Shown here in pieces: positions 10,626 to 33,524 of a stretch of DNA of 64,000 nucleotides (the first letter of the stretch is position 1; each line of letters begins with the position of its first letter). The translations under genes and the position numbers were made by a program. Under the pieces are notes generated by a model. That model was given only the letters and a program-made list of their open reading frames with translations, was not told the DNA's origin and did not search any database. This stretch comes from Lactonifactor sp. BIOML-A5 (lineage in GTDB: Bacteria > Bacillota > Clostridia > Lachnospirales > Lachnospiraceae). The stretch lies in assembly GCF_009677585.1 (NCBI RefSeq), contig NZ_WKYV01000001.1:129001-193000 (forward strand), read 5' to 3'.

Positions 10626-12071
<1,446 letters not shown>

Positions 12072-21994: not shown

Positions 21995-22017
21995 CCCGCA
22001 TGCTTTGCAGCGCTGAA

Positions 22018-22275
22018 TTAGAAGGTCTGCTCTACAAATTTCTTCACCTTCTCCAGTTCAGCCTCATCACAGTCGTCTTCCAGTGTTATGGTTATCACAT
22101 CACCCTTTTTCACATTTAATGTCATCAGAGCCACCAATTGGTCGGCGCTTACTGTATTTCCATCCTTTGTAATGGTGACAGCCGTATCCATTCCTTTTAC
22201 TAATTCAACCAAAAGACCTACCGGCCTTGCATGGAATCCCAATTCATCACTGATTTTATATTGAAATTCTGTCAT
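22018..22275 (-). CDS. HPr-family phosphocarrier with Gln at the regulatory Ser46 position
   Basis: PTS phosphocarrier-like protein of 85 residues. The active-site segment ELGFHARPVGLLV places the phosphorylated His at residue 15. The usual IMGVMSL regulatory segment is replaced by DQLVALMTL: residue 46 is Gln, not Ser, so HPr kinase could not phosphorylate it there. The start at 22275 follows GGAGAAGG. It stands alone with its own promoter and terminator, with no ptsI next to it. It could be a secondary HPr (Crh-like in reverse: His kept, Ser lost) used for one PTS or for regulation. Confidence 0.88.
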   Translation of the reverse strand: MTEFQYKISDELGFHARPVGLLVELVKGMDTAVTITKDGNTVSADQLVALMTLNVKKGDVITITLEDDCDEAELEKVKKFVEQTF

Positions 22276-22356
22276 GTTCCTTCTCCTCTCCAATCGTTCC
22301 TATGGATAGTAATTGCTTCCTTTGTTCCCCAAACTGACTTCTCCCAAGTAACCTAT

Positions 22357-22386
22357 ATTATACCATTACATAGGATTCATTGACAA
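22357..22386 (-). promoter_or_regulatory. Promoter of the HPr gene
   Basis: Minus-strand TTGTCA (22386-22381), 18-base spacer, TATAAT (22362-22357). Confidence 0.6.
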
Positions 22387-22498
22387 TCATCTTTTTCAAT
22401 ACAATTTTTGTTGCACCTTTTTAACTTCTCTTTTATACTGGAGACAGAATATTATATCTGCTGTACTATTATAAATTAAAAGTTATATGAGGGTTGCT

Positions 22499-23434
22499 AT
22501 GTTCAAAGGAATGGAATACGTATACGAAGTTTATAAGGAAAAAAGCTTTTCCAAGGCAGCTGCCAATCTGTACATCTCCCAGCCATCTCTGAGTGCAACA
22601 ATTAAAAAAATAGAGGAGCGCGTGGGCACCCCCCTATTTGACCGAAGCACCAATCCTATTCAGCTTACAGACTGCGGGAAAGAATATGTAAAATGCATGG
22701 AGAAGATCTTGGATATAGAAAACGGTTTTGAAAACTACCTGAATCATATGAATGAATTGAAAACCGGCAGACTTTCCATCGGAGGCAGTAATTTTTTCAC
22801 CTCTTTTGTGCTCCCTCCCATAGTCTCCAGATACATGCAGAAGTATCCTTTCATTCAAATCAGTCTCATTGAGGCCAACACCTCCCAGTTAGATCAGCAG
22901 CTGATATCTGGGGCACTGGATCTTGTCATTGACAATTATGCTTTTCATGAATCCATCTACACCCGTCACTTCCTGTGCAGAGAACAGCTTCTCCTGGCGG
23001 TCCCCAGACATTTTGCATCCAACAAATCTTTCATAAACTGCAGACTCTCCAAAGAAGACATTGTGTCCGAAAAGCACCATCTGGAGTCAACCCCCTGCGT
23101 CCCCCTGGAAGCATTCCGGGAGGACCCCTTCATCCTTCTGCGCTCAGGCAACGATACCCGGGAACGGGCCGATAAAATCTGCAGCAGCCACGGCTTCCGT
23201 CCAAGAGTAATACTAAAGCTGGACCAGCAGCTGTCGGCATACAATGTTGCCTGTTATGGAATGGGGATAGCCTTCGTAAGCGATACCCTGATCCGGCACA
23301 GCAGGCCCGACGAGAATATTATATTTTATAAGCTACAGGATCCTGAGACTGTGAGGAATGTTTACTTTTATCATAAGCAGAGCCGGTATGTAACCAGGGC
23401 AATGGAGGAGTTTTTAAAGGTCGCATGTCTTTAG
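22499..23434 (+). CDS. LysR-family transcriptional regulator
   Basis: A 311-residue LTTR: N-terminal wHTH (SFSKAAANLYISQPSLSATI, residues about 16-35) and a C-terminal substrate-binding fold. The start at 22499 is set by GAGGG; the ATG at 22487 overlaps the box. The effector domain shows GRLSIGGSNFFTSFVLPP and GALDLVIDN. Its stop codon abuts the stop of the SSF transporter gene on the opposite strand, so it is convergent with the amino-acid oxidation operon. It could regulate that operon or a distant target; nothing in the sequence decides. No divergent partner gene is present. Confidence 0.88.
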   Translation: MFKGMEYVYEVYKEKSFSKAAANLYISQPSLSATIKKIEERVGTPLFDRSTNPIQLTDCGKEYVKCMEKILDIENGFENYLNHMNELKTGRLSIGGSNFFTSFVLPPIVSRYMQKYPFIQISLIEANTSQLDQQLISGALDLVIDNYAFHESIYTRHFLCREQLLLAVPRHFASNKSFINCRLSKEDIVSEKHHLESTPCVPLEAFREDPFILLRSGNDTRERADKICSSHGFRPRVILKLDQQLSAYNVACYGMGIAFVSDTLIRHSRPDENIIFYKLQDPETVRNVYFYHKQSRYVTRAMEEFLKVACL

Positions 23435-24853
23435 CTATTCCAGGAATATTGTCTCCCGCCGATCCACTGCGGATCCCACAATCAGCAATGCCAGCGACAT
23501 AAGGCTCCCCACAATTACTTCCGGAACCCCAAAGGGATTACCCAATACAGATTTCCACAGTACCGACGATAAAAATCCGCCGATCATCCCCATGGTAATT
23601 CCAAGCTTCTTTGCCCGTTTGGACAAGAGTGCTGCCATGGCAGGGATTGCTATGGCTGAGGCGAAGTAAGACATTGATAAAACCAGTGACTCCAGAATAT
23701 TCTCCATTCTCAAAGCAAATACCAGGGCAAGAATTCCTATTACAACCACCGAATATCTGGACAGCTTCAGCTGGGTCTCCTGTTTTACTCCCGGATGGAT
23801 TGCCAGAAGCAAGTCGGTGCACAGCGTCTGGGAAGCCAGAAGCAGATAGCTGTCAATGGTAGACATTACAATGGCAATCAGGGATGTAATCACCAAAGCG
23901 TACAGAATAGGCGGAAAAGATTCTTTTACCATCAGGGGAATCAGCATTTCATGGGAGATTCCTTTTGGAAAGGACGGATAGAGAATCAATGCACACACAC
24001 CTATAATGGTCACAGCAAAGCTGTAGAACAGGATGATTACATTACCTCCAATCGCTCCCTTGCTGGCCACCTTAGAAGATGAGGAAGCAAAGGAACGCTG
24101 CCAATAGGGAGGTCCAGCCAAAAAATATAGCAAATATACAACCGTATAGGATGCAATGGATTTGTCAAATTTCAATTCGAAATAATGTTCCGGAAGGCTG
24201 GCCGCCAGATTGGTCAGCCCTCCTACTTTACTCAATGCTGCTGCCGGCAGAATTACCCCGATGACTACGATGAGCAGTATTCCCTGAAGGGTATCTGTAT
24301 AGGCAACCCCGTAAAATCCGGACAGGGTAGTGTAGGCGATAACAATTACAGTGGTGACGATAAGAGCTGTCTGATAGGATATCTCCCAGTCATCTGCCAT
24401 AACCATCTGAAGGATTTTTGAAGAGGCAACCATCTGGGTTCCTGCGGTCCCGATAACCGTCCAGCCAATAATGGCTGAGGCTATCAGGGCTGGCAGGCGG
24501 CCAAATCTTTTGGTAATCAGATCCGGTATGGACAGAATATGATACTTCTGCCCTATTTTCTGAATGCGCCCGGCAAACAGACAGAATACCGCAAAAGCAA
24601 TTACCGTCGCAAATGTAGGCAGAATCGCAGAGATTCCAATCTCATATGCCAGACCTGATTTTCCCAGGGTAGAAGACGCACCAATCCAGGTAGCCGCAAA
24701 GGTCAGCATAATCACAGGCCATGGAAGATTCCTCTGTCCAAGATAGTAACCCTCCAGATTTTTTGATTTTTTCTGCAGTACAATACTGATGGCAGCAGTG
24801 GCTGCAAAATAGATTATTAATACCGTAAGTACAAGAACCATAAATTGTATCAC
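23435..24853 (-). CDS. Sodium:solute symporter family transporter
   Basis: SSF (LeuT-fold) secondary transporter of 472 residues with about 13 membrane segments. Family features are LEGYYLGQRNLPWPVIMLTF near residue 33, TWIGASSTLGKSGLAYEIG near 55 and AYTTLSGFYGVAYTDTLQG near 173. Substrates of relatives include proline, pantothenate and short-chain carboxylates. It is the last gene of the operon with amino-acid dehydrogenase, oxidoreductase and acyl-CoA synthetase, so it may import the amino acid or export or import the acid product; the choice is inference. Confidence 0.9.
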   Translation of the reverse strand: MIQFMVLVLTVLIIYFAATAAISIVLQKKSKNLEGYYLGQRNLPWPVIMLTFAATWIGASSTLGKSGLAYEIGISAILPTFATVIAFAVFCLFAGRIQKIGQKYHILSIPDLITKRFGRLPALIASAIIGWTVIGTAGTQMVASSKILQMVMADDWEISYQTALIVTTVIVIAYTTLSGFYGVAYTDTLQGILLIVVIGVILPAAALSKVGGLTNLAASLPEHYFELKFDKSIASYTVVYLLYFLAGPPYWQRSFASSSSKVASKGAIGGNVIILFYSFAVTIIGVCALILYPSFPKGISHEMLIPLMVKESFPPILYALVITSLIAIVMSTIDSYLLLASQTLCTDLLLAIHPGVKQETQLKLSRYSVVVIGILALVFALRMENILESLVLSMSYFASAIAIPAMAALLSKRAKKLGITMGMIGGFLSSVLWKSVLGNPFGVPEVIVGSLMSLALLIVGSAVDRRETIFLE

Positions 24854-24898
24854 CTGACCTTTTGTAAGAATATTTCGTTTGCGTATTTCAGTACGGAT

Positions 24899-26131
24899 TT
24901 ATGCTTTTATGTTCTTCTTTCCCATCCGGTTTATAATAAGTGCAAATACAATACCCAACACAGCGAAGAGGATAATCGCTCCGAATACGAACTTAAATCC
25001 TGCAGCTCCCGGATTGCTGTCAATCAGTTTGCCGAGTATCAGATTCATATATGCGTCCGGCAGGAAACCGATGGCACAGATAATACCGGTTGCAGTTCCG
25101 GTAAATTCTTTTGGAACCCCGGCCTCCCCCATAGTTGCAAAGTAAATTCCACGGATTGCATACATAACCGTCGCAAATGCGATCACTGTCACAATGGCAG
25201 GTATCAGCATACTTGATTTTCCCGGAATAACCAGGAGGAGTGCTGCAAAAACAATCTCTACTACAAATAATCCCATAACCATTTTAGAATAAGAGCTGGT
25301 TTTGTCTGCGATTTTACCCATAATAGGCGCGCTGAATATACCAATTCCGTAGCTTCGGATGGTAGCCACGATCCCGGCTGTAACGGTGGTCATTCCGAAT
25401 ATAGTTGTCAGGTATGTAGTTGTATATTCTGATGCAACCTGGGCGCTGTAAGCACACATTACAAGGAGAGCCACAATCCAGATCCCCGGGATCTTTAACA
25501 CTTTGACATAGTCGGCAAAGGTTGCAGATGTGCGTGCTTCTTCTTTGCTCTTTTTTGGAAGAAGGAGCCACATAGCGATGGTCAGTAAAGTGTAAACAAT
25601 ACCGTAGAACAGCAAAACGTAACGAAGAGGCTGAGCCGTTGTGACAAAGTGATTAAACACTGCCAGAGCTGCAAAATTAATCAGAACGCCTGCCGCGGCG
25701 CGGATTCCCTCACTATAGCCAAAGATAGAACCCTGCTCATTGTCATCCGCAAGAATACGGATGGCCTTTACTGCTGATACCCAAAATATTACATTCGAAA
25801 ATGCAAGTAAAAACTGGATTGCCATAAGTCCTGTCAGAGATGGAATCGTCGCATACCAGAAGGTCAGCGCCGCCAGCATCAGGTTGGATCCAACCAGCAT
25901 CTTGCGGTTGTCAAAACGATCTGCAAGAATACCTCCGGGGATATAGATAATCATTTTCGTAATTGAGTAAACACTCATGATAGTTCCTACTTGTGTGTTG
26001 GTCAGCTTAAATTCTTCCACCAACGCATCGTAAAACACGGTTTTCAAATATGGGACACGGTAAATCAGACCCGCTGATATAGTAACCACAAAAAATGCAA
26101 TCCATTTGTGTTGCTTATTCGTATTTCCCAT
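24899..26131 (-). CDS. MFS transporter
   Basis: Major facilitator protein of 410 residues with 12 predicted membrane segments. The loop 2-3 motif appears as GGILADRFDNRKMLVGSN near residue 65. Substrate unknown. It lies between the ADP-forming acyl-CoA synthetase and the SSF transporter in the amino-acid oxidation operon, 45 bp upstream of the latter. A role in amino-acid uptake or organic-acid export is suggested only by location. Ribosome binding site GGAGG. Two different transporters in one catabolic operon suggests one for substrate and one for product. Confidence 0.88.
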   Translation of the reverse strand: MGNTNKQHKWIAFFVVTISAGLIYRVPYLKTVFYDALVEEFKLTNTQVGTIMSVYSITKMIIYIPGGILADRFDNRKMLVGSNLMLAALTFWYATIPSLTGLMAIQFLLAFSNVIFWVSAVKAIRILADDNEQGSIFGYSEGIRAAAGVLINFAALAVFNHFVTTAQPLRYVLLFYGIVYTLLTIAMWLLLPKKSKEEARTSATFADYVKVLKIPGIWIVALLVMCAYSAQVASEYTTTYLTTIFGMTTVTAGIVATIRSYGIGIFSAPIMGKIADKTSSYSKMVMGLFVVEIVFAALLLVIPGKSSMLIPAIVTVIAFATVMYAIRGIYFATMGEAGVPKEFTGTATGIICAIGFLPDAYMNLILGKLIDSNPGAAGFKFVFGAIILFAVLGIVFALIINRMGKKNIKA

Positions 26132-26156
26132 CTACATACCTCCTTGGGTTCTTGTA

Positions 26157-28244
26157 CTATTGCTCTTTAATAACCAAAGCATCCGCAAGTGCAACCCCTT
26201 CTCCTTCGGGGTACACAAACAGTGGGTTGATATCCAGTTCCTTTAAGGATTCCTTCTGGGCAACCGCATATTCGGAAATCTTAACAATAAATTTTGCCAG
26301 AGCATCCACATCACATTTTTTACTGCCCCGGTATCCGTTCAACAGCTTATAGCCTTTCAGAGATTCTATCATGCTTCTGGCTTCCTGTTCATTCAGAGGC
26401 GCAGGATAAAGACTTACATCTTTAAAAACCTCCACAAAGACGCCCCCGAGCCCGCACAGAATCATTGGTCCGAACTGGGGATCCGCATTTACCCCGATGA
26501 TCATCTCCACTCCCTGGGGAAGCATGGACTGAACCAATACACCGTCGATTCTGGCGTCCGGACATTTCTCCTTTACACTTTCCATAATCTCCTGGTAGGC
26601 AGCCTCCAGCTCCCCGGCATCTTGGAGATTCAGCTTCACTCCCCCCACATCACTCTTATGCAGAATATCCGGAGATGCAATTTTAGCCACAGCCGGATAA
26701 GAAATGCCTGGGGCAAAGTCTCTTAGTTCCTCCTTTGAGCTTACAATAGCTTCCGGGGGGACAGGTACCCCTGCCGCTGCCAGTTCGCATTTGCTGTCAT
26801 GTTCGCTTAACGCTGTCCTGACTTTTTCTTTCTTCTGATTCTCCAGTATTGCCAAATCTAAAATATGTTCTTCCGGTTTATATTTCACAAAATCCATGAG
26901 ATATTTCAGAAGCTTGAAGCCGCAGCCTGTGGCTGGCAGGATAGGAACTCCTGCTGCTTCCAGCTTTTCACGTACCATCTTATCCCTGGATGAGTTAAAG
27001 AAACTCATAACCGCAACAGGTTTCTTCTTTTTTCCGGCTGCAATCACCATGCCGTCTGACATGGGCTGAATCACGTCTTTCGGACCGTGCTCCGGGAGAA
27101 TCGTCTGGCCGCACAATACCATCCCTATCGAGGGATCTTCCATAATGGCCTGAATGACTGCCGCATACTTTTCTCCGTCATGGGCCAGGGTGGCAGACAT
27201 GTCCAGAGGGTTGGCCGGTGTGGCATAATCCGGCAGAAGCTCTCTTAGCTTGTCCATTGTCTCAGGAGCAAATTCAGGATATTCCAGCCCCAGCAGAGTT
27301 CCTGTATCTGCGCACACTCCAGTCTCTCCCCCTGAAAGACACATGGCCGAAAGTCCTGTATTCTCCGGAATCATAGGCAGTACACTGAGCATATGGCACA
27401 TCTGTACCAATTCCTCAATATCATCCACACGAATTACACCGAATTTTTTAACAATTGCATCAAACGCTTTGTCTGACCCTGCGAGACTGCCTGTATGAGA
27501 AGCCGCCAGAGCACTCCCCTTTGAGGTTTTTCCTACCTTCAGGATAACCACCGGCTTTCTGGCCAGAGCTGCCTGCTTCAGAACCTCTTTGAATTTTACA
27601 GGATCTTTAATTCCTTCCATATAAAGGCCGATCACTTTGGTATCTTCATCTTTTATGAGGAACTCCAGATAATCCTCAATGCGGATACAGGTGCTGTTCC
27701 CGCTGGAGATAAGATAGGAAAAATTCATATAGGTAATCTGCATCATATTCAGGCAGATTTTTCCCGACTGGGATATAATGGCCACATTTCCCTTTCTCGC
27801 CTCACCAGGCACCAGCATTCCAAAGGCAAAGATTTCGTCCAGATTGTTGATGAATCCGGCACAGTTTACCCCCATAACCGCCATATCGAGTTTTCTGCAG
27901 AGCTCCCGAAGCTGGCCTTCGCTTTCCTTGTCACCGGTTTCTCCATACCCGCTGGCGTAGACAACCGCCGCCTTACATCCGTATTCAGCTGCCTCCTCAA
28001 GGGCTGACGGCACTACTTTTTTATTCACAATGAGCACGCACATGTCTATTTTTTCAGGGATTTCCCCTATACTTTTATAACATTCTTTTCCCAGAACTTC
28101 CTCTCTTTTGGGATGAACGAAATAAACATGCTCTTTTATCTTTGTTTTCAGCAGATTGCTGCAGGTGGACAGCCCGAATCCGGGCTTGTCCGTTGCTCCA
28201 ATCACAGCAATACTTCTAGGGCGCAGTAATTTTGTCAGTTCCAT
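26157..28244 (-). CDS. ADP-forming acyl-CoA synthetase (fused alpha-beta)
   Basis: Makes ATP from acyl-CoA: acyl-CoA + ADP + Pi gives acid + CoA + ATP. The 695 residues carry an N-terminal CoA-binding domain (PRSIAVIGATDKPGFG near residue 9), the ligase domain with phospho-His in SHTGSLAGS near residue 249, and a C-terminal ATP-grasp domain (about 465-690) with the second His in LHKSDVGGVKLNL. It is a fusion of the alpha and beta subunits that are separate in Pyrococcus. It follows the 2-oxoacid oxidoreductase genes by 4 bases, so its substrate is most likely the acyl-CoA they make (isovaleryl, isobutyryl or arylacetyl), not only acetyl-CoA. Confidence 0.9.
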   Translation of the reverse strand: MELTKLLRPRSIAVIGATDKPGFGLSTCSNLLKTKIKEHVYFVHPKREEVLGKECYKSIGEIPEKIDMCVLIVNKKVVPSALEEAAEYGCKAAVVYASGYGETGDKESEGQLRELCRKLDMAVMGVNCAGFINNLDEIFAFGMLVPGEARKGNVAIISQSGKICLNMMQITYMNFSYLISSGNSTCIRIEDYLEFLIKDEDTKVIGLYMEGIKDPVKFKEVLKQAALARKPVVILKVGKTSKGSALAASHTGSLAGSDKAFDAIVKKFGVIRVDDIEELVQMCHMLSVLPMIPENTGLSAMCLSGGETGVCADTGTLLGLEYPEFAPETMDKLRELLPDYATPANPLDMSATLAHDGEKYAAVIQAIMEDPSIGMVLCGQTILPEHGPKDVIQPMSDGMVIAAGKKKKPVAVMSFFNSSRDKMVREKLEAAGVPILPATGCGFKLLKYLMDFVKYKPEEHILDLAILENQKKEKVRTALSEHDSKCELAAAGVPVPPEAIVSSKEELRDFAPGISYPAVAKIASPDILHKSDVGGVKLNLQDAGELEAAYQEIMESVKEKCPDARIDGVLVQSMLPQGVEMIIGVNADPQFGPMILCGLGGVFVEVFKDVSLYPAPLNEQEARSMIESLKGYKLLNGYRGSKKCDVDALAKFIVKISEYAVAQKESLKELDINPLFVYPEGEGVALADALVIKEQ

Positions 28245-28248
28245 AGGC

Positions 28249-28788
28249 TCACTCCTTTGCTACATAGTCATAACCTGCCTGAAATGCCGCAAGATTACTC
28301 TCATGGAACTGTGGCTTCTTCGCAAAGTAATGTTTGATTCCTTCTTCATAGCATTCTTTGCCAAAAAGATCTGTACATGCCGCCAGAGCCCCGATAATGC
28401 AGATATTCGTTCCTCTGGAATAAGAAATCTTTTCACATACCTCCGTAGCCGGAATTTCCACTACCCTGATGTCTCCTTTTCTAGGTACATCCTTTACAAT
28501 AGAAGAATTAACCAGGATAATCCCGTCGTCTTTCATCTGAGGCAGAAACTTGTCTATAGAAGGCTGATTCATGGCAACTAAAATATCTATCTTCTTGACA
28601 AAAGGACTGCCGATCAGCTCATCACTGATTTTAACGGTACAATTGGCTGTTCCCCCGCGCATCTCCGCACCGTAAGAAGGAATCCAGGTGACCTCTTTAT
28701 CCTGCATCGCCCCGATATGAGCGATAATCAGACCTGTTGTCAGAATACCCTGACCTCCGAAACCTGCAAATACAAATTGTTTCTCCAT
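28249..28788 (-). CDS. 2-oxoacid:ferredoxin oxidoreductase, gamma subunit
   Basis: Gamma (POR-type) subunit of 179 residues, carrying the CoA-binding domain of the complex. The start FAGFGGQGILTTG is the family signature; SYGAEMRGGTANCTV and AMNQPSIDKF follow. Its ATG overlaps the stop of the beta gene by one base, indicating coupled translation. It belongs to the four-gene set delta-alpha-beta-gamma. Separate subunits of this size are typical of 2-ketoisovalerate or 2-oxoglutarate oxidoreductases. Confidence 0.92.
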   Translation of the reverse strand: MEKQFVFAGFGGQGILTTGLIIAHIGAMQDKEVTWIPSYGAEMRGGTANCTVKISDELIGSPFVKKIDILVAMNQPSIDKFLPQMKDDGIILVNSSIVKDVPRKGDIRVVEIPATEVCEKISYSRGTNICIIGALAACTDLFGKECYEEGIKHYFAKKPQFHESNLAAFQAGYDYVAKE

Positions 28789-29531
28789 TACTGGTCACCT
28801 CCCTTTGCAAATTCACCCAGAGGATAATACTGGATAACTTCTTCCCCGATTCTTCTCATAGATTCCTCCGGTGTCATATGCCAGTTTGTGGGACATGGGG
28901 AAAGTATCTCAACACAGGAGTAGCCTTCGCCTGCCATCTGAGCGGCAAACGCCTTTTTGATATAAGATTTTGCCTTCATAATATGCGGGGCATCATGAAT
29001 AGATCCTCTAGCCATATAAGCAGGTTCAAAGCTTTTCAGCACTTCCATAAGATTCAGAGGCATGCCGGATACTTCAGGGTCTCTTCCTTTCACAGAGGTA
29101 GTTGTTTTCTGTCCCACAAGAGTGGTAGGGGACATCTGCCCTCCTGTCATTCCGTAAACGCCGTTATTTACAATAATCTGGGTGATTTTCTCTTTTCTCT
29201 GCGCGGTATAGATCGTCTCTGCGATACCGATAGAGGCAGCATCCCCGTCCCCCTGGTAGGTAAGAACCAGCTTTTCAGGTCTGCAGCGCTTAATGGCGGC
29301 TGCTGCTGCGGAGGCTCTTCCGTGAGGAGACTGCAGCAGATCAATGGCAAGTGTCCGGTTTGTCAGACAGCTGCACCCAACTGCCAATACGCCAATGGTA
29401 TCCCTGTCTATATCCATTTCATCAATCACTTCCGCAATGAGCCGCAATACAAGTCCGTGGCCGCATCCCGGGCAGAAGCTGTTTGCCGCATAAATACTTC
29501 TTGGTATTTCTCTCTCTTTTACTGCTGCCAT
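28788..29531 (-). CDS. 2-oxoacid:ferredoxin oxidoreductase, beta (thiamine diphosphate) subunit
   Basis: A 247-residue TPP-binding subunit. CPGCGHGLVLR is near residue 20; the TPP/Mg motif is GDGDAASIG through IVNN (about residues 98-125). NGVYGMTGGQMSPTT follows, as in KOR/VOR enzymes. It carries out oxidative decarboxylation of the 2-oxoacid, with electrons passed to the ferredoxin-like delta subunit. The alpha stop is adjacent and the gamma start overlaps by one base. Confidence 0.93.
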   Translation of the reverse strand: MAAVKEREIPRSIYAANSFCPGCGHGLVLRLIAEVIDEMDIDRDTIGVLAVGCSCLTNRTLAIDLLQSPHGRASAAAAAIKRCRPEKLVLTYQGDGDAASIGIAETIYTAQRKEKITQIIVNNGVYGMTGGQMSPTTLVGQKTTTSVKGRDPEVSGMPLNLMEVLKSFEPAYMARGSIHDAPHIMKAKSYIKKAFAAQMAGEGYSCVEILSPCPTNWHMTPEESMRRIGEEVIQYYPLGEFAKGGDQ

Positions 29532-30602
29532 TTAGAATGCCTCCTTTCTTGTTCCGGCACGAATTTCGTCTACAATCCGGAGAATCTCTTCCTGATCAGC
29601 GATGACCCTGCCGGAGGGATAAGCGTATACCGGTGTCCCCTGTGCATAAAGAGCTACATCTTCCACCATCTGTCCGCATGCATTCATCTCAACGGCCAGA
29701 TAAGCTTTTACGGTTTTGTTTGTCTTGTGAAGCGCTTTCTTCGGGAACGGCCAAAGAGTGATGGGACGGATCATTCCCAGCTTCACCCCATTTGCCCTGG
29801 CTGCCTTTACAGCGCCCCGGCATACTCTGGATGTGATACCATAGGCTACAAGAATAATCTCCGCATCCTCGGTCTCCACTTCCTCCCACATTTGTTCATT
29901 CTCCTCCATGACAGAATAACGGTCGCGGATATGGGGATCATACTCTGTATATTTAAAGTCATAGTAAATCCGGTCAGTCATCTTTCTTCCGTTGGGATAC
30001 GTATCATCTTTTCCCTTCAGCGTCCACTCAAATTTATTGGGATCGTGCTCTTTTCCCTCAGGGAGCTTTACGGATTCTGCCATCTGTCCGATGGCGCCGT
30101 CGCTGAGTATGATAACAGGTGTTCTGTATTCCTCTGCCTTGTCAAAAGCAAGAATGGTGTAATCCACGTTTTCCTGTACGGAAGAAGGTGCATAAACTAA
30201 GGTCTTATAACCGCCGTGTCCTCCGCCTTTAACTGCCTGGAAATAATCCCCCTGTCCCAGAGTAATATTTCCCAGACCGATGCCGTAGCGCATAACATCT
30301 ACAATGACTGCAGGCAGCTCCATAGAAGATATGTAGGAGATTCCCTCCTGCTTCAGGCTGAATCCCGGTCCCGAAGAACTTGTCATAGCCCGGAATCCCG
30401 TTGCCGCTGCCCCCAGCACCATATTAATGCCTGCCAGCTCTGATTCCGTCTGCACAAACTGCCCTCCCACTTCCGGCAGCCTGGTTGAGAGATATTCCAG
30501 AATCTCTGTCTGAGGTGTGATGGGATAGCCGGCAAAGAACCGGCAGCCTGCTAAAATAGCAGCCTCAGCCAAAGCATTATTCCCCTTCATTAATGTTCTC
30601 AT
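29532..30602 (-). CDS. 2-oxoacid:ferredoxin oxidoreductase, alpha subunit (VorB-like)
   Basis: A 356-residue alpha subunit. MKGNNALAEAAILAGCRFF and GYPITPQTEILEYL at the start are typical, then FVQTESELAGINMVLGA and MTSSSGPGFSLKQEGISY. Overall length and these blocks fit the subunit usually named 3-methyl-2-oxobutanoate dehydrogenase VorB, the branched-chain 2-oxoacid enzyme; 2-oxoglutarate or aryl-pyruvate specificity cannot be excluded from sequence alone. It overlaps the delta-subunit gene by 4 bases. Confidence 0.9.
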   Translation of the reverse strand: MRTLMKGNNALAEAAILAGCRFFAGYPITPQTEILEYLSTRLPEVGGQFVQTESELAGINMVLGAAATGFRAMTSSSGPGFSLKQEGISYISSMELPAVIVDVMRYGIGLGNITLGQGDYFQAVKGGGHGGYKTLVYAPSSVQENVDYTILAFDKAEEYRTPVIILSDGAIGQMAESVKLPEGKEHDPNKFEWTLKGKDDTYPNGRKMTDRIYYDFKYTEYDPHIRDRYSVMEENEQMWEEVETEDAEIILVAYGITSRVCRGAVKAARANGVKLGMIRPITLWPFPKKALHKTNKTVKAYLAVEMNACGQMVEDVALYAQGTPVYAYPSGRVIADQEEILRIVDEIRAGTRKEAF

Positions 30603-30811
30603 GCCGGTTGCACCTCCTCATTTTTGATTGTTATTACATAATCAGGACATACCGTATAGCAGATTCCGCATCCGATACATTTATCCTGGTCTACTTCCAC
30701 CACTGCGTACCCCTTGCCGTTGATTTCCGAAGACACGGACAGCGCCCCCTGTTTGCACGCCCGGATACAATAACCGCAGGATTTGCAGTTTTCCTTTTTT
30801 ATGACAACCAT
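30599..30811 (-). CDS. 2-oxoacid:ferredoxin oxidoreductase, delta (2x[4Fe-4S]) subunit
   Basis: A 70-residue ferredoxin-like subunit with two CxxCxxCxxxC motifs: CKSCGYCIRACKQG (about residues 9-22) and CIGCGICYTVCPD (about 46-58). It relays electrons from the TPP site to free ferredoxin. First of the four oxidoreductase genes, 76 bp after the dehydrogenase gene, with an AGGAGA box. Confidence 0.93.
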   Translation of the reverse strand: MVVIKKENCKSCGYCIRACKQGALSVSSEINGKGYAVVEVDQDKCIGCGICYTVCPDYVITIKNEEVQPA

Positions 30812-30887
30812 AATTACCTTCTCCTTTCCTGCAGCCCGCCTGTCCGCCTTGCGGGGACAGACCGGCTGCTGTTTGCCTGCCGGTTAA

Positions 30888-32030
30888 CTAGCACTCCGGC
30901 TCGTCCTGGGTGTCTGGTTCGAATATTTCCAGAGCAATATCTCTTTGATATCTGCCTGTGGCTTTTGAAATCTCGAAGATTTTAGCAACATTTCTTCTGC
31001 AGAGTGCATCAATATCATGAATTACATTTTCTGCGGTAGGTTCGATCACTCCAAAGGTGATGGTGTAGAAGAAACGTACAGCACCCAGATTTGCAATGAA
31101 GTCAGGTACAATCTGAATTCCTCTTTCATGAAGGCCCGGATCTGCGGAAGCGGCTACCGGAATATTTGCGCCTTCACAGATAAGCTTTGCCTTTACTTTA
31201 TCTACATTGCTGCCGTTGATGACATCTTCCAGAGCTACTGGAACCAAGATATCACAGGGCACATCCATCCATGCGGAGTTCGGCATTACCTCCCAGGAAG
31301 GATCGAATTTAGACTGGTCCATCTCGCCTCTCGGCAGAACGTTTGCTATAAGACTTTCTACGTCCAAACCATCCTTGCAGTATACAAAGCAGTTTGCATC
31401 TGCAATACCCACGATCTTATAACCCAGCTTATGAAGCCTGTGGGTACAGCTGAGACCTACACATCCAAATCCCTGGATTACAACGGAAGCTCCGGGTTCT
31501 CCGCCCATCTGTTTCCATGCCTCATCTCCTGAAACAGCAACACCGTATCCGGTGGTCAGGTCATTGAGCAGGAATCCGTCGTAGTGGCTCTGCAGGAGTT
31601 TTCTTACATTTTCCTGGCCTTTAGCTATGATAGGATTATTTCTCATAGACTTTGTCATGGGACGTCCCATTCCCAGCTCATCGAAGATCCGGTATACGTC
31701 CTCATACTTCGTCCCCAGGTCAGAACCCATTGCCAGTCCTGCATCGATGTATGGCCTCATGGCAATGATAAATCTTTTTAACACATCAACAGCATCCGGT
31801 GCTTTGTAGTCATATACGATTCCGGCCTTTGCACCGCCCTGCCAGGTATTCTCGCAGGCTTTCCTTTTGTAGGCCATTGCCTCTGCCAGACGAATTACCT
31901 CTTCTCTCGTCACTGTGGGATGCATTCTGATTCCGCCTCCGGAATACCCTTTTGCCAGATTAAACACACATAACCAACCCTTAGCGTCTGTTTTTGTATC
32001 GTTCCACTCAATTAAAATATAAGGTCTCAT
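30888..32030 (-). CDS. Amino-acid dehydrogenase of the Glu/Leu/Phe/Val superfamily
   Basis: NAD(P)-dependent oxidative deamination of an amino acid to its 2-oxoacid. The 380 residues have the catalytic-Lys region MAYKRKACENTWQGGAKAG near 70 and a Rossmann domain with GFGCVG near 195. The Asp segment reads GSDLGTKYEDV, which resembles Leu/Phe/Val dehydrogenases, whereas the true GDH at 10626 has [10 protein letters not shown]. The start at 32030 follows ATAGGAGG. First gene of the eight-gene operon; its product would feed the 2-oxoacid oxidoreductase. Specificity (branched-chain or aromatic) is inferred. Confidence 0.85.
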   Translation of the reverse strand: MRPYILIEWNDTKTDAKGWLCVFNLAKGYSGGGIRMHPTVTREEVIRLAEAMAYKRKACENTWQGGAKAGIVYDYKAPDAVDVLKRFIIAMRPYIDAGLAMGSDLGTKYEDVYRIFDELGMGRPMTKSMRNNPIIAKGQENVRKLLQSHYDGFLLNDLTTGYGVAVSGDEAWKQMGGEPGASVVIQGFGCVGLSCTHRLHKLGYKIVGIADANCFVYCKDGLDVESLIANVLPRGEMDQSKFDPSWEVMPNSAWMDVPCDILVPVALEDVINGSNVDKVKAKLICEGANIPVAASADPGLHERGIQIVPDFIANLGAVRFFYTITFGVIEPTAENVIHDIDALCRRNVAKIFEISKATGRYQRDIALEIFEPDTQDEPEC

Positions 32031-32086
32031 ACCCAATCCTCCTATTGTTTTTTCTCCTGTTCTATTGCATGTATTGGCCAATTCTA

Positions 32087-32139
32087 TTGCAAAAGAAGCA
32101 ATTTCAGGCTATAATATTAGAAAATAGCATAAATGGAAA
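32087..32139. promoter_or_regulatory. Divergent promoters with overlapping -10 boxes
   Basis: Plus strand: TTGCAA (32087-32092), 17 bases, TATAAT (32110-32115). Minus strand: TTTCCA (32139-32134), 17 bases, TATTAT (32116-32111). The two -10 elements occupy the same 7 bases. TTCTATTGCA occurs twice (32060 and 32082), 22 bp apart, and TTAGAAAA/TTTTCTAA form an inverted repeat across the minus -35. These are candidate regulator sites. Confidence 0.55.
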
Positions 32140-32270
32140 AACTTTTTTCTAACATCTATCCCCATGTGAGACATTATATCAATTTTTACTCATTTTTCAA
32201 CATTTTCGCTCTTACTTTTGTGGATAGTATCTAAAATAAAAACGCACTGTCTATGAGGAGGAAGTTAAAA

Positions 32271-33524
32271 ATGTTTAATGAACCCGTGATTTTTGGCCGT
32301 TTTCTGGTGAACTCAACCCAAGGCCGGGAATACTTTGAGATTTACAAAAAAATTTCTCCCGACAGCAATCAGTACAAGTGTATTGAACGCACTCATACTG
32401 CCCTGGGACAACATTTTCTGGATTTTTTAGAATACAGCGATGAGGCACTGCCCCCCATTGTATCCCACTACAATAAAGTCTTCAAATATCTGGATAAAGA
32501 TTACCTGGACCAGAAAAAAATACATACTACAATGGGATTTATTCACGATATTTATAATAGTTTATCCGCGGTTCATCCCTTTTGGAAATCCACTTTTTAT
32601 CTAAATCCGGTACTATCAAACTACAAATGGTATGAGTTCTATTACTTCAGGGAGTATATGAATTACGACGCTTCAGATATGACAGAGGCGGACAGGGACA
32701 GCAAAATGCAGCATTACTGGGATCAGGTACGAAGAAGCATTATGCATGAGCTGAAGGAACTGGAAGAGTTTCTGAACTTCATCTCCTCTATGCGAAATGC
32801 CGTTACCTTCTGCCTGGATTACTCCAGCTTTCCGGAATTTTCTAAACTGCACACACAACAGAGAGCATACCTGTACCAGTCACATTTTGATTCAAATTTT
32901 ATGCGGAATCAGACAATCCAGAGCATCTTTAACCTGAGCGACCGGGCCAGCGCCATGGATCCGGACCGTCTGATCTCCTTCTCTGACAACAACGAAGTTA
33001 TGGTAAGCAGTATCATATCCAACGCAAATTATTACGAGCTGATCAAAAAATCGAAGACAGCACTGGATTTCTCAGCATTAGCTGCTTCCGTAGAAAAAAC
33101 ATCCATTGAAACCACTACGAATCTGGATATTACAACCCTGGAGGACATCAGCACCATCTGTCTCTATACTTTTTCTCTTTTGGTTTCCAATAATGTTCAC
33201 GTAAGGCCCTGCAAAAACTGCGGGAGGCTCTTCTCCCCGTATAACCGAAAGGATGAACTCTATTGTTCCAGGATACAGGCGAATTCTAAAACCTGCCGGG
33301 AGGATTACTACGACAAACAGATACATACCGATGAATTGATTCGCTATTATCGTACTGCATACAAAAGGGAAAATGCGAGAAAACAGAGAAATATTGTGAA
33401 CAAACCATCCTCTGAAAAGGAGTTTATTCAGTGGACAAAAAAGGCAAAAAAAGCATTGGAAAAAGCAAAAAAAGGTGATATTTCTTTCGAAGAATTCAAG
33501 AAAATATTAGATCGGGAGGGGTGA
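32271..33524 (+). CDS. Uncharacterised protein with C-terminal Cys motif (DUF6076-like)
   Basis: A 417-residue cytosolic protein, function unknown. The start at 32271 is set by GAGGAGG; the ATG at 32253 overlaps that box. About 310 N-terminal residues are helical and rich in aromatic residues with no recognised domain. Then comes a probable zinc site: CKNCGRLFSPYNRKDELYC, a further Cys about 10 residues on (KTCRED), and a Lys-rich, likely helical tail. This tail resembles DUF6076 proteins of Lachnospiraceae. It is divergent from the amino-acid oxidation operon, with overlapping promoters, so a regulatory role is possible but unproven. Long 5' leader of about 150 bases. Confidence 0.6.
   Translation: MFNEPVIFGRFLVNSTQGREYFEIYKKISPDSNQYKCIERTHTALGQHFLDFLEYSDEALPPIVSHYNKVFKYLDKDYLDQKKIHTTMGFIHDIYNSLSAVHPFWKSTFYLNPVLSNYKWYEFYYFREYMNYDASDMTEADRDSKMQHYWDQVRRSIMHELKELEEFLNFISSMRNAVTFCLDYSSFPEFSKLHTQQRAYLYQSHFDSNFMRNQTIQSIFNLSDRASAMDPDRLISFSDNNEVMVSSIISNANYYELIKKSKTALDFSALAASVEKTSIETTTNLDITTLEDISTICLYTFSLLVSNNVHVRPCKNCGRLFSPYNRKDELYCSRIQANSKTCREDYYDKQIHTDELIRYYRTAYKRENARKQRNIVNKPSSEKEFIQWTKKAKKALEKAKKGDISFEEFKKILDREG

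Follow-up and report, generated by a model that had tools for sequence, protein, structure and literature searches.

Eight genes on the minus strand of a 64,000-nucleotide stretch of Lactonifactor sp. BIOML-A5 (contig NZ_WKYV01000001.1, positions 129,001 to 193,000; hereafter the window) probably form a substrate-specific cassette for amino-acid oxidation, in which a 2-oxoacid:ferredoxin oxidoreductase (OFOR) core would be a module that can be reused with one substrate after another. The MFS transporter, here together with an SSS-family sodium symporter, would import an amino acid that the dehydrogenase (DH) would deaminate with NAD(P)+ to a 2-oxoacid, a chemistry suggested by its conserved catalytic residues and one that would make an aminotransferase unnecessary. 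The substrate of the DH is presumably an amino acid other than glutamate, most likely a bulky hydrophobic or aromatic one. From what is known of their families, KorABCD would oxidise the 2-oxoacid with CoA, releasing CO2 and yielding acyl-CoA and reduced ferredoxin; the fused ADP-forming acyl-CoA synthetase (ACD) would convert acyl-CoA, ADP and Pi to the acid and ATP. The electrons probably flow to the Wood-Ljungdahl pathway, because the nearest genome has an acetyl-CoA synthase. Diverged cassettes in the species would combine the same OFOR core with differing front ends and transporters, and each copy probably serves a different food molecule.

The DH carries both Pfam domains of its superfamily (PF00208 and PF02812), and K55, K68 and D104, which we take to be the catalytic Lys/Lys/Asp, are present in 57/57 family members; at D104 the MAFFT register against glutamate dehydrogenase (GDH) is offset, and the phmmer alignment sets this residue on the APD-type Asp. 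GDH presumably contacts the glutamate side-chain carboxylate through K89 and S380 (C. symbiosum numbering). The side-chain Lys and the side-chain Ser are each found in 30/30 GDH-type proteins (frames from relatives, labelled GDH by similarity), 0/10 cassette DHs and, in alignment A2, 0/57 family members, with G31 replacing the Lys and F321 the Ser in the window protein. On these missing contacts we rejected assignment of the DH as a GDH, and its best NCBIfam GDH score is 129 bits, against a cut-off of 620. R319, where GDH has a small residue, is kept in 55/57 family members. The DH tree holds 19 family members, 12 of the 30 GDH-type proteins, two rows resembling leucine dehydrogenase (LeuDH), a ScyB-like row and no phenylalanine dehydrogenase (PheDH) or valine dehydrogenase row, and has long branches and a midpoint root. 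In it the new family (100/99) and GDH (97/91) form clades on separate sides, and the LeuDH-like and ScyB-like rows lie beyond a 100/97 branch from the DH family, a position on which we rejected a LeuDH/PheDH assignment.

A preliminary description of this locus, which is partly supported overall, had correctly set the DH apart from the GDH form encoded elsewhere in the window (10626-11987, identified by position match to the GDH of the nearest genome, G001), and had placed it among Leu/Phe/Val dehydrogenases from its DLGT segment. That segment does resemble LeuDH (EDVGT in 6acf), but the protein as a whole is nearer to GDH than to LeuDH by sequence and fold, and its clade stands apart from both, so the Leu/Phe/Val identity is not supported. 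All 50 matches listed in each of two fold searches are GDH-type enzymes, listings that do not alone rule out LeuDH. G102, a candidate PheDH-like sign, was not used because it cannot be aligned to GDH with certainty. Judged from sequence, the DH forms a branch of its own within the Glu/Leu/Phe/Val superfamily, with a GDH-like fold and outside the GDH and LeuDH clades.

KorA scores 456.9 bits against the VorB model NF005507 (cut-off 399) and lies below the cut-offs of the 2-oxoglutarate models; it alone passes a curated NCBIfam cut-off, with KorB, KorC and KorD below theirs. This score, the four subunits and the thiamine and Fe-S motifs identify KorABCD as a predicted 2-ketoisovalerate-type (VOR-like) OFOR. 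The ACD has CoA-binding, ligase and ATP-grasp domains and both expected histidines, His250 of SHTG and His529 of HKSD. The His of (S/A)HTG and that of HK(S/T)(D/E) are present in 11/11 aligned ACDs, and we assume their functional role from general knowledge. Scores against the acetate, 4-hydroxybutyrate and 3-hydroxypropionate CoA ligase equivalogs (445, 431 and 415 bits) fall below the cut-offs of 1200, 1300 and 1300. Branched-chain and aromatic substrates may both be possible, since phenyl-, hydroxyphenyl- and indoleacetate are the substrates of a C. difficile ligase encoded next to a VOR-like OFOR (PMC13285125), and Blautia hydrogenotrophica has two VOR-like enzymes with a preference for aromatic 2-oxoacids (PMC13290082).

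The nearest genome, G001, has 89% of 31-letter words in common with the window and is 99.645% identical over 20 kb, and in effect belongs to the same species. The acetyl-CoA synthase family PF03598 (AcsB-type) matches this genome twice and also matches in 2/14 control genomes, and on this ground the host species is very likely an acetogen. Six DH paralogs lie at five of its loci, with 100, 57, 53, 49, 47 and 46% identity to the window DH. The copy on contig C28 is an intact frame of 375 amino acids whose TAA is the terminal codon, ruling out a pseudogene. The other 40 relatives have either distant DH matches only (32 genomes; 25-35% identity, GDH-like) or none (8), and the DH was matched at 1e-80 in 1/291 genomes of a class draw (G001) and at 1e-70 in 3/398 genomes of a phylum draw, both draws including G001. 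Among named DH clusters, one from Blautia comes nearest (P0001, 97%). Relatives on plasmids were limited to two Streptomyces records at ~30% identity, and none was found in 82 genomes from the class of G330.

A VOR-like korA lies within 6 kb at all five DH loci of G001. There are 12 VOR-like korA places (at least 40% identity) in this genome, five with the DH and seven with other front ends, a count that leaves out three of 15 rows at 27-34% identity (two being one open reading frame). Full-length fused ACDs stand at VOR-like korA loci in 7/7 cases, with none found elsewhere in G001 (nine rows, minus two pieces of one different 948-residue frame). A rough uniform-placement estimate, not corrected for duplication of whole cassettes, puts the chance of the DH-korA and ACD-korA closeness at 1.4e-7 and 2.6e-10. 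The five korA loci that lack an ACD have CoA-transferase-type genes (C61:100k, C54 and C39), phosphate butyryltransferase and butyrate kinase (Ptb-Buk; C23), or PduL with an acetate-kinase-like protein (C29:337k). C39 counts as an OFOR locus by its korA. Besides the five DHs, the front enzymes are a ScyB-like DH at C23, D-2-hydroxyacid dehydrogenases at C48 and C39, and PanE-like reductases at C51, C29:337k and C54, most of these names being matches below curated NCBIfam cut-offs; no 2-oxoacid-forming enzyme was recognised among the genes of C61:70k. All 20 Aminotran_1_2 places of G001 are more than 7.5 kb away from the 12 korA genes, this being the one aminotransferase family searched; the nearest, at C39:17006, is weak and 7.9 kb from the C39 korA. 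No PF00155 place was found within 25 kb of the window-type locus in G001.

Several of these loci have contents of their own. The OFOR-ACD locus at C61:70k (L103, G001:C61:62001-80000) contains an MttB-like methyltransferase, a RidA-like protein, a BCCT carrier and two proline-racemase-like genes, the second identified by eye, and is possibly a route for proline betaine or a related compound. At L036 (G001:C58:1-16000), two tandem threonine-dehydratase-like genes accompany two DH paralogs, one M20 amidohydrolase and one IclR-like gene; in L034, the counterpart of L036 in Johnsonella, a BCCT carrier is joined with a GNAT domain in one fusion. At L105 (G001:C23:43001-55356), the OFOR lies beside a 450-residue ScyB-like dehydrogenase, with divergent genes for phosphate butyryltransferase and butyrate kinase.

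The neighbourhood search that had been proposed for this gene order recovered complete DH-Kor-ACD clusters outside the species, in metagenome-assembled genomes of Lachnoclostridium (L032) and Johnsonella (L034) and in genomes G333 (L049) and G587 (L050). Three further loci are partial: L031 ends within korD, L033 is a 3.5-kb contig with a DH alone, and L035 is a 29% relative without the other genes. Three cassette types recur in other bacteria. The trees of DH, KorA, KorB, KorC and ACD from eight cassettes all (5/5) pair the window with L032, C58 with L034 and C28 with L050, so the cassette appears to travel and diverge as a unit. The window DH is 79% identical to the L032 DH, against 46-57% to its five G001 paralogs; together with the same pairs in five trees, this means that the types are older than the species split or moved as units. 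Among the eight cassettes, DH distances correlate with those of ACD (0.83), KorC (0.84), KorA (0.66) and KorB (0.26). The deep divergence of the types fits specialised functions. In the KorA tree, the D-2-hydroxyacid-linked C48 falls inside the C58 group (95/90), and front ends appear to have been exchanged between cassettes. In L049 (G333:C22:315001-335000), the MFS gene after the ACD is split into two frames of 169 and 251 amino acids, either a broken gene or an assembly error.

OFOR-ACD gene pairs have already been published for Clostridia (PMC13285125), and OFOR-driven oxidation for B. hydrogenotrophica (PMC13290082). Clusters of amino-acid-fermenting Clostridia that place an OFOR next to phosphotransacylase/kinase or ADP-forming ligase genes, such as HpdDEFG-HpdJ-HpdK of C. 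scatologenes and Cd3c of C. difficile, combine, like the cassette, a four-subunit VOR-like OFOR with an energy-conserving enzyme acting on acyl-CoA, and neighbouring ADP-forming ligases (PF13607) are described among them (PMC13285125). Unlike the cassette, these clusters have an aminotransferase as the first step, and the available part of that paper describes neither a dedicated amino-acid dehydrogenase nor a series of paralogous cassettes each with its own transporter. The contrast with classical Clostridia drawn in the preliminary description stands for the front end, where a DH is present and no Aminotran_1_2 gene is near, but not for the pairing of OFOR with an ADP-forming ligase. Its comparison with the archaeal route divides in the same way: Thermococcales (P. 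furiosus, T. kodakarensis) also follow an OFOR with an ADP-forming acyl-CoA synthetase, but their 2-oxoacids are made by aminotransferases, their dehydrogenase serves Glu alone, and their synthetase has separate alpha and beta subunits where the cassette has one fused chain (PMC3942289, PMC9986279).

B. hydrogenotrophica resembles the host as a gut acetogen with many OFORs (ten) that reassimilates CO2 through the Wood-Ljungdahl pathway, but in that species aminotransferases and phosphate butyryltransferase/butyrate kinase accompany multiple loci (PMC13290082); the terms 'dehydrogenase' and 'ADP-forming' are absent from the main text of that paper. A LeuDH-Ptb locus (L110 in G040) likewise sets a direct amino-acid dehydrogenase beside an energy-conserving enzyme acting on acyl-CoA, but its dehydrogenase belongs to the LeuDH clade, a phosphate-butyryltransferase-like gene (by eye) replaces the ACD, and the 3-kb stretch covered shows no OFOR. 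Among the matches listed in searches of the open-licence literature, judged by titles and abstract openings, we found no report of a DH-OFOR-ACD cassette. Against that literature, two things are new: a front end with a DH and no aminotransferase, and the presence of the cassette in several copies.

A wider claim is possible but more tentative. The DH would represent one more class of amino-acid dehydrogenase, distinct from both GDH and LeuDH/PheDH, and a gut acetogen would oxidise single amino acids with neither aminotransferase nor partner organism. Its twelve VOR-like OFOR modules would form a combinatorial library with a constant core, a swapped front enzyme (DH, ScyB-like DH, D-2-hydroxyacid dehydrogenase, PanE-like reductase, or a methyltransferase/RidA set) and a swapped CoA-handling enzyme (ACD, CoA-transferase, Ptb-Buk or PduL-AckA). 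If this reading is right, one bacterium can make branched or aromatic acids from single amino acids, gaining ATP as well as electrons to fix CO2, and has a separate gene set for each substrate; genes would then predict where several gut metabolites come from, and the DH branch would be a new source of amino-acid dehydrogenases. The paralogs are also a natural experiment on how substrate range is set jointly in DH, OFOR and ACD.

Several observations weigh against an oxidation cassette that is inherited whole. The substrates of all eight proteins and the direction of the pathway are ones that we infer, and searches of family models and the PDB gave no named substrate for either transporter: no PDB relative was found for MFS, and the sole one for SSS is a choline transporter at 53 bits. 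The strong hairpin between DH and korD could uncouple their expression. The DH-linked KorAs are not one clade, although their labels change 3 times against 6.3 in shuffles (2/500 as low), and the ACD labels are unclustered (3 changes against 2.8; 500/500 as low). KorB distances correlate poorly with those of KorC (0.16) and ACD (0.30) as well as DH, so OFOR subunits may have been exchanged at times. In a wider DH tree, the metagenome protein P0065 joins C58 before Johnsonella, with weak support (94/44), and the DH family is also present in Bacilli, for example Peribacillus and Oceanobacillus.

The main rival is a cassette working in reverse: the ACD would spend ATP to activate an imported branched-chain or aryl acid, KorABCD would carry out a reductive carboxylation with reduced ferredoxin, and amination by the DH would yield an amino acid. 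Every step of a comparable OFOR pathway is called reversible, methanogen OFORs are proposed to run in this direction, and the same is suggested for a Bacteroides IOR (PMC13285125). An acetogen supplies reduced ferredoxin and CO2, and the SSS protein is weakly similar to the monocarboxylate transporter model NF058657 (39.9 bits; cut-off 670). We nevertheless consider this direction unlikely: acyl-CoA synthesis is favoured by AMP-forming ligases (PMC13285125), whereas the cassette ligase is of the ADP-forming type, and multiple cassettes would look redundant for biosynthesis. Paralogous cassettes, moreover, adjoin amino-acid permeases (AGCS at C61, above cut-off; APC at C28, below cut-off), M20 amidohydrolases (C58 and C29b) and ammonia-lyase-like enzymes (threonine-dehydratase-like, at C58), which with the ligase type would favour the oxidative direction.

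That the DH acts on an unusual amino acid, for example an N-acyl-derived or methylated one, overlaps partly with amino-acid oxidation as proposed here and would agree with the retention of R319 and with the M20 amidohydrolases and BCCT betaine-type carrier next to related cassettes; the eight window genes include neither an amidohydrolase nor a BCCT-type carrier, and we regard it as improbable. An operon running from glutamate through 2-oxoglutarate and succinyl-CoA to succinate, with the DH as a GDH variant, is very improbable given the loss of both side-chain contacts throughout the family, the standard GDH gene elsewhere in the window and the model scores of KorA.

Table 1. Features of the eight-gene unit and its surroundings, in window coordinates.
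Feature	Position	Strand	Description
DH	32030-30888	minus	ATG start, 380 amino acids; PF00208/PF02812
KorD	30811-30599	minus	Two-cluster 4Fe-4S ferredoxin-like delta subunit; two CxxCxxCxxxC motifs
KorA/VorB	30602-29532	minus	OFOR alpha subunit; NF005507
KorB	29531-28788	minus	Thiamine diphosphate beta subunit; PF02775; GDGD...NNGVYG, CPGCGHG
KorC	28788-28249	minus	Gamma subunit; PF01558
Fused ACD	28244-26157	minus	695-residue alpha-beta NDP-forming acyl-CoA synthetase; PF13380/PF13607/PF13549
MFS transporter	26131-24899	minus	68% identical homolog in sister cassette L032
SSS-family sodium symporter	24853-23435	minus	GTG start; sister locus L032 (21 kb) has no match
Promoter-like site upstream of DH	32173..32200	minus	TTGAAA, 16, TATAAT, TG ahead of second hexamer; 11/12
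DH-korD gap	30812..30887	minus	Hairpin, -35.1 kcal/mol, z -4.5, without T run
DUF6076 protein	32253..33524	plus	Divergent from DH; Cys-rich C-terminal part; candidate regulator
LysR-type regulator	22487..23434	plus	Convergent with SSS, abuts SSS stop codon; no match in L032

As first described, the eight genes are co-directional, with the same order and families and with gaps of -4 to 76 bases (Table 1); from DH to SSS the spacing is 76, -4, 0, -1, 4, 25 and 45 bases. A clear ribosome-binding stretch, judged by eye, precedes 7/8 starts, and that before the GTG of SSS is weaker. Promoter-like sites in the region number 25 against 18.7 expected, counted by consensus match only. Terminator-like sites number 10, where shuffles predict 8.7, and all of them lie outside the inter-gene gaps of the unit. 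The DH-korD hairpin is also found in L032 (z -3.1), with none in L031, and may set a different level for DH than for the remaining genes. Spacing and terminator-free gaps agree with a predicted single operon, with the hairpin as a possible point of separation. An Rfam scan of 22000-33000 at gathering scores gave zero matches.

At the downstream end, the SSS and LysR genes converge at 23434-23435 with zero bases between them, and the LysR gene is not clearly a member of the unit because L032 has no match to it. Within the LysR coding region, the minus strand has a terminator-like stem of 14 pairs (22608-22639); the LysR codons there encode EERVGTPLF, a segment frequent in LysR proteins. The stem is probably a coincidence, but could halt antisense transcription from the cassette.

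At the upstream end, a DUF6076 gene is the neighbour of the DH at all three loci of the window type that show that side (the window itself, L031 and L032). The protein is rare: its relatives comprise 16 rows among 5.8 billion proteins, 13 of them full-length (including the window's own, P0121), and share a conserved Cys-rich, basic C-terminal part. One of them, P0124, comes from a contig of length 10301, and the DH relative P0002 also comes from a contig of that length. Comparison of the modelled fold (pLDDT 79) with the PDB gave nothing at E <= 0.001. By eye, the genes close to other cassettes include IclR-, GntR- or, at C29b, MerR-like ones, and the DUF6076 protein is a candidate regulator of the cassette.

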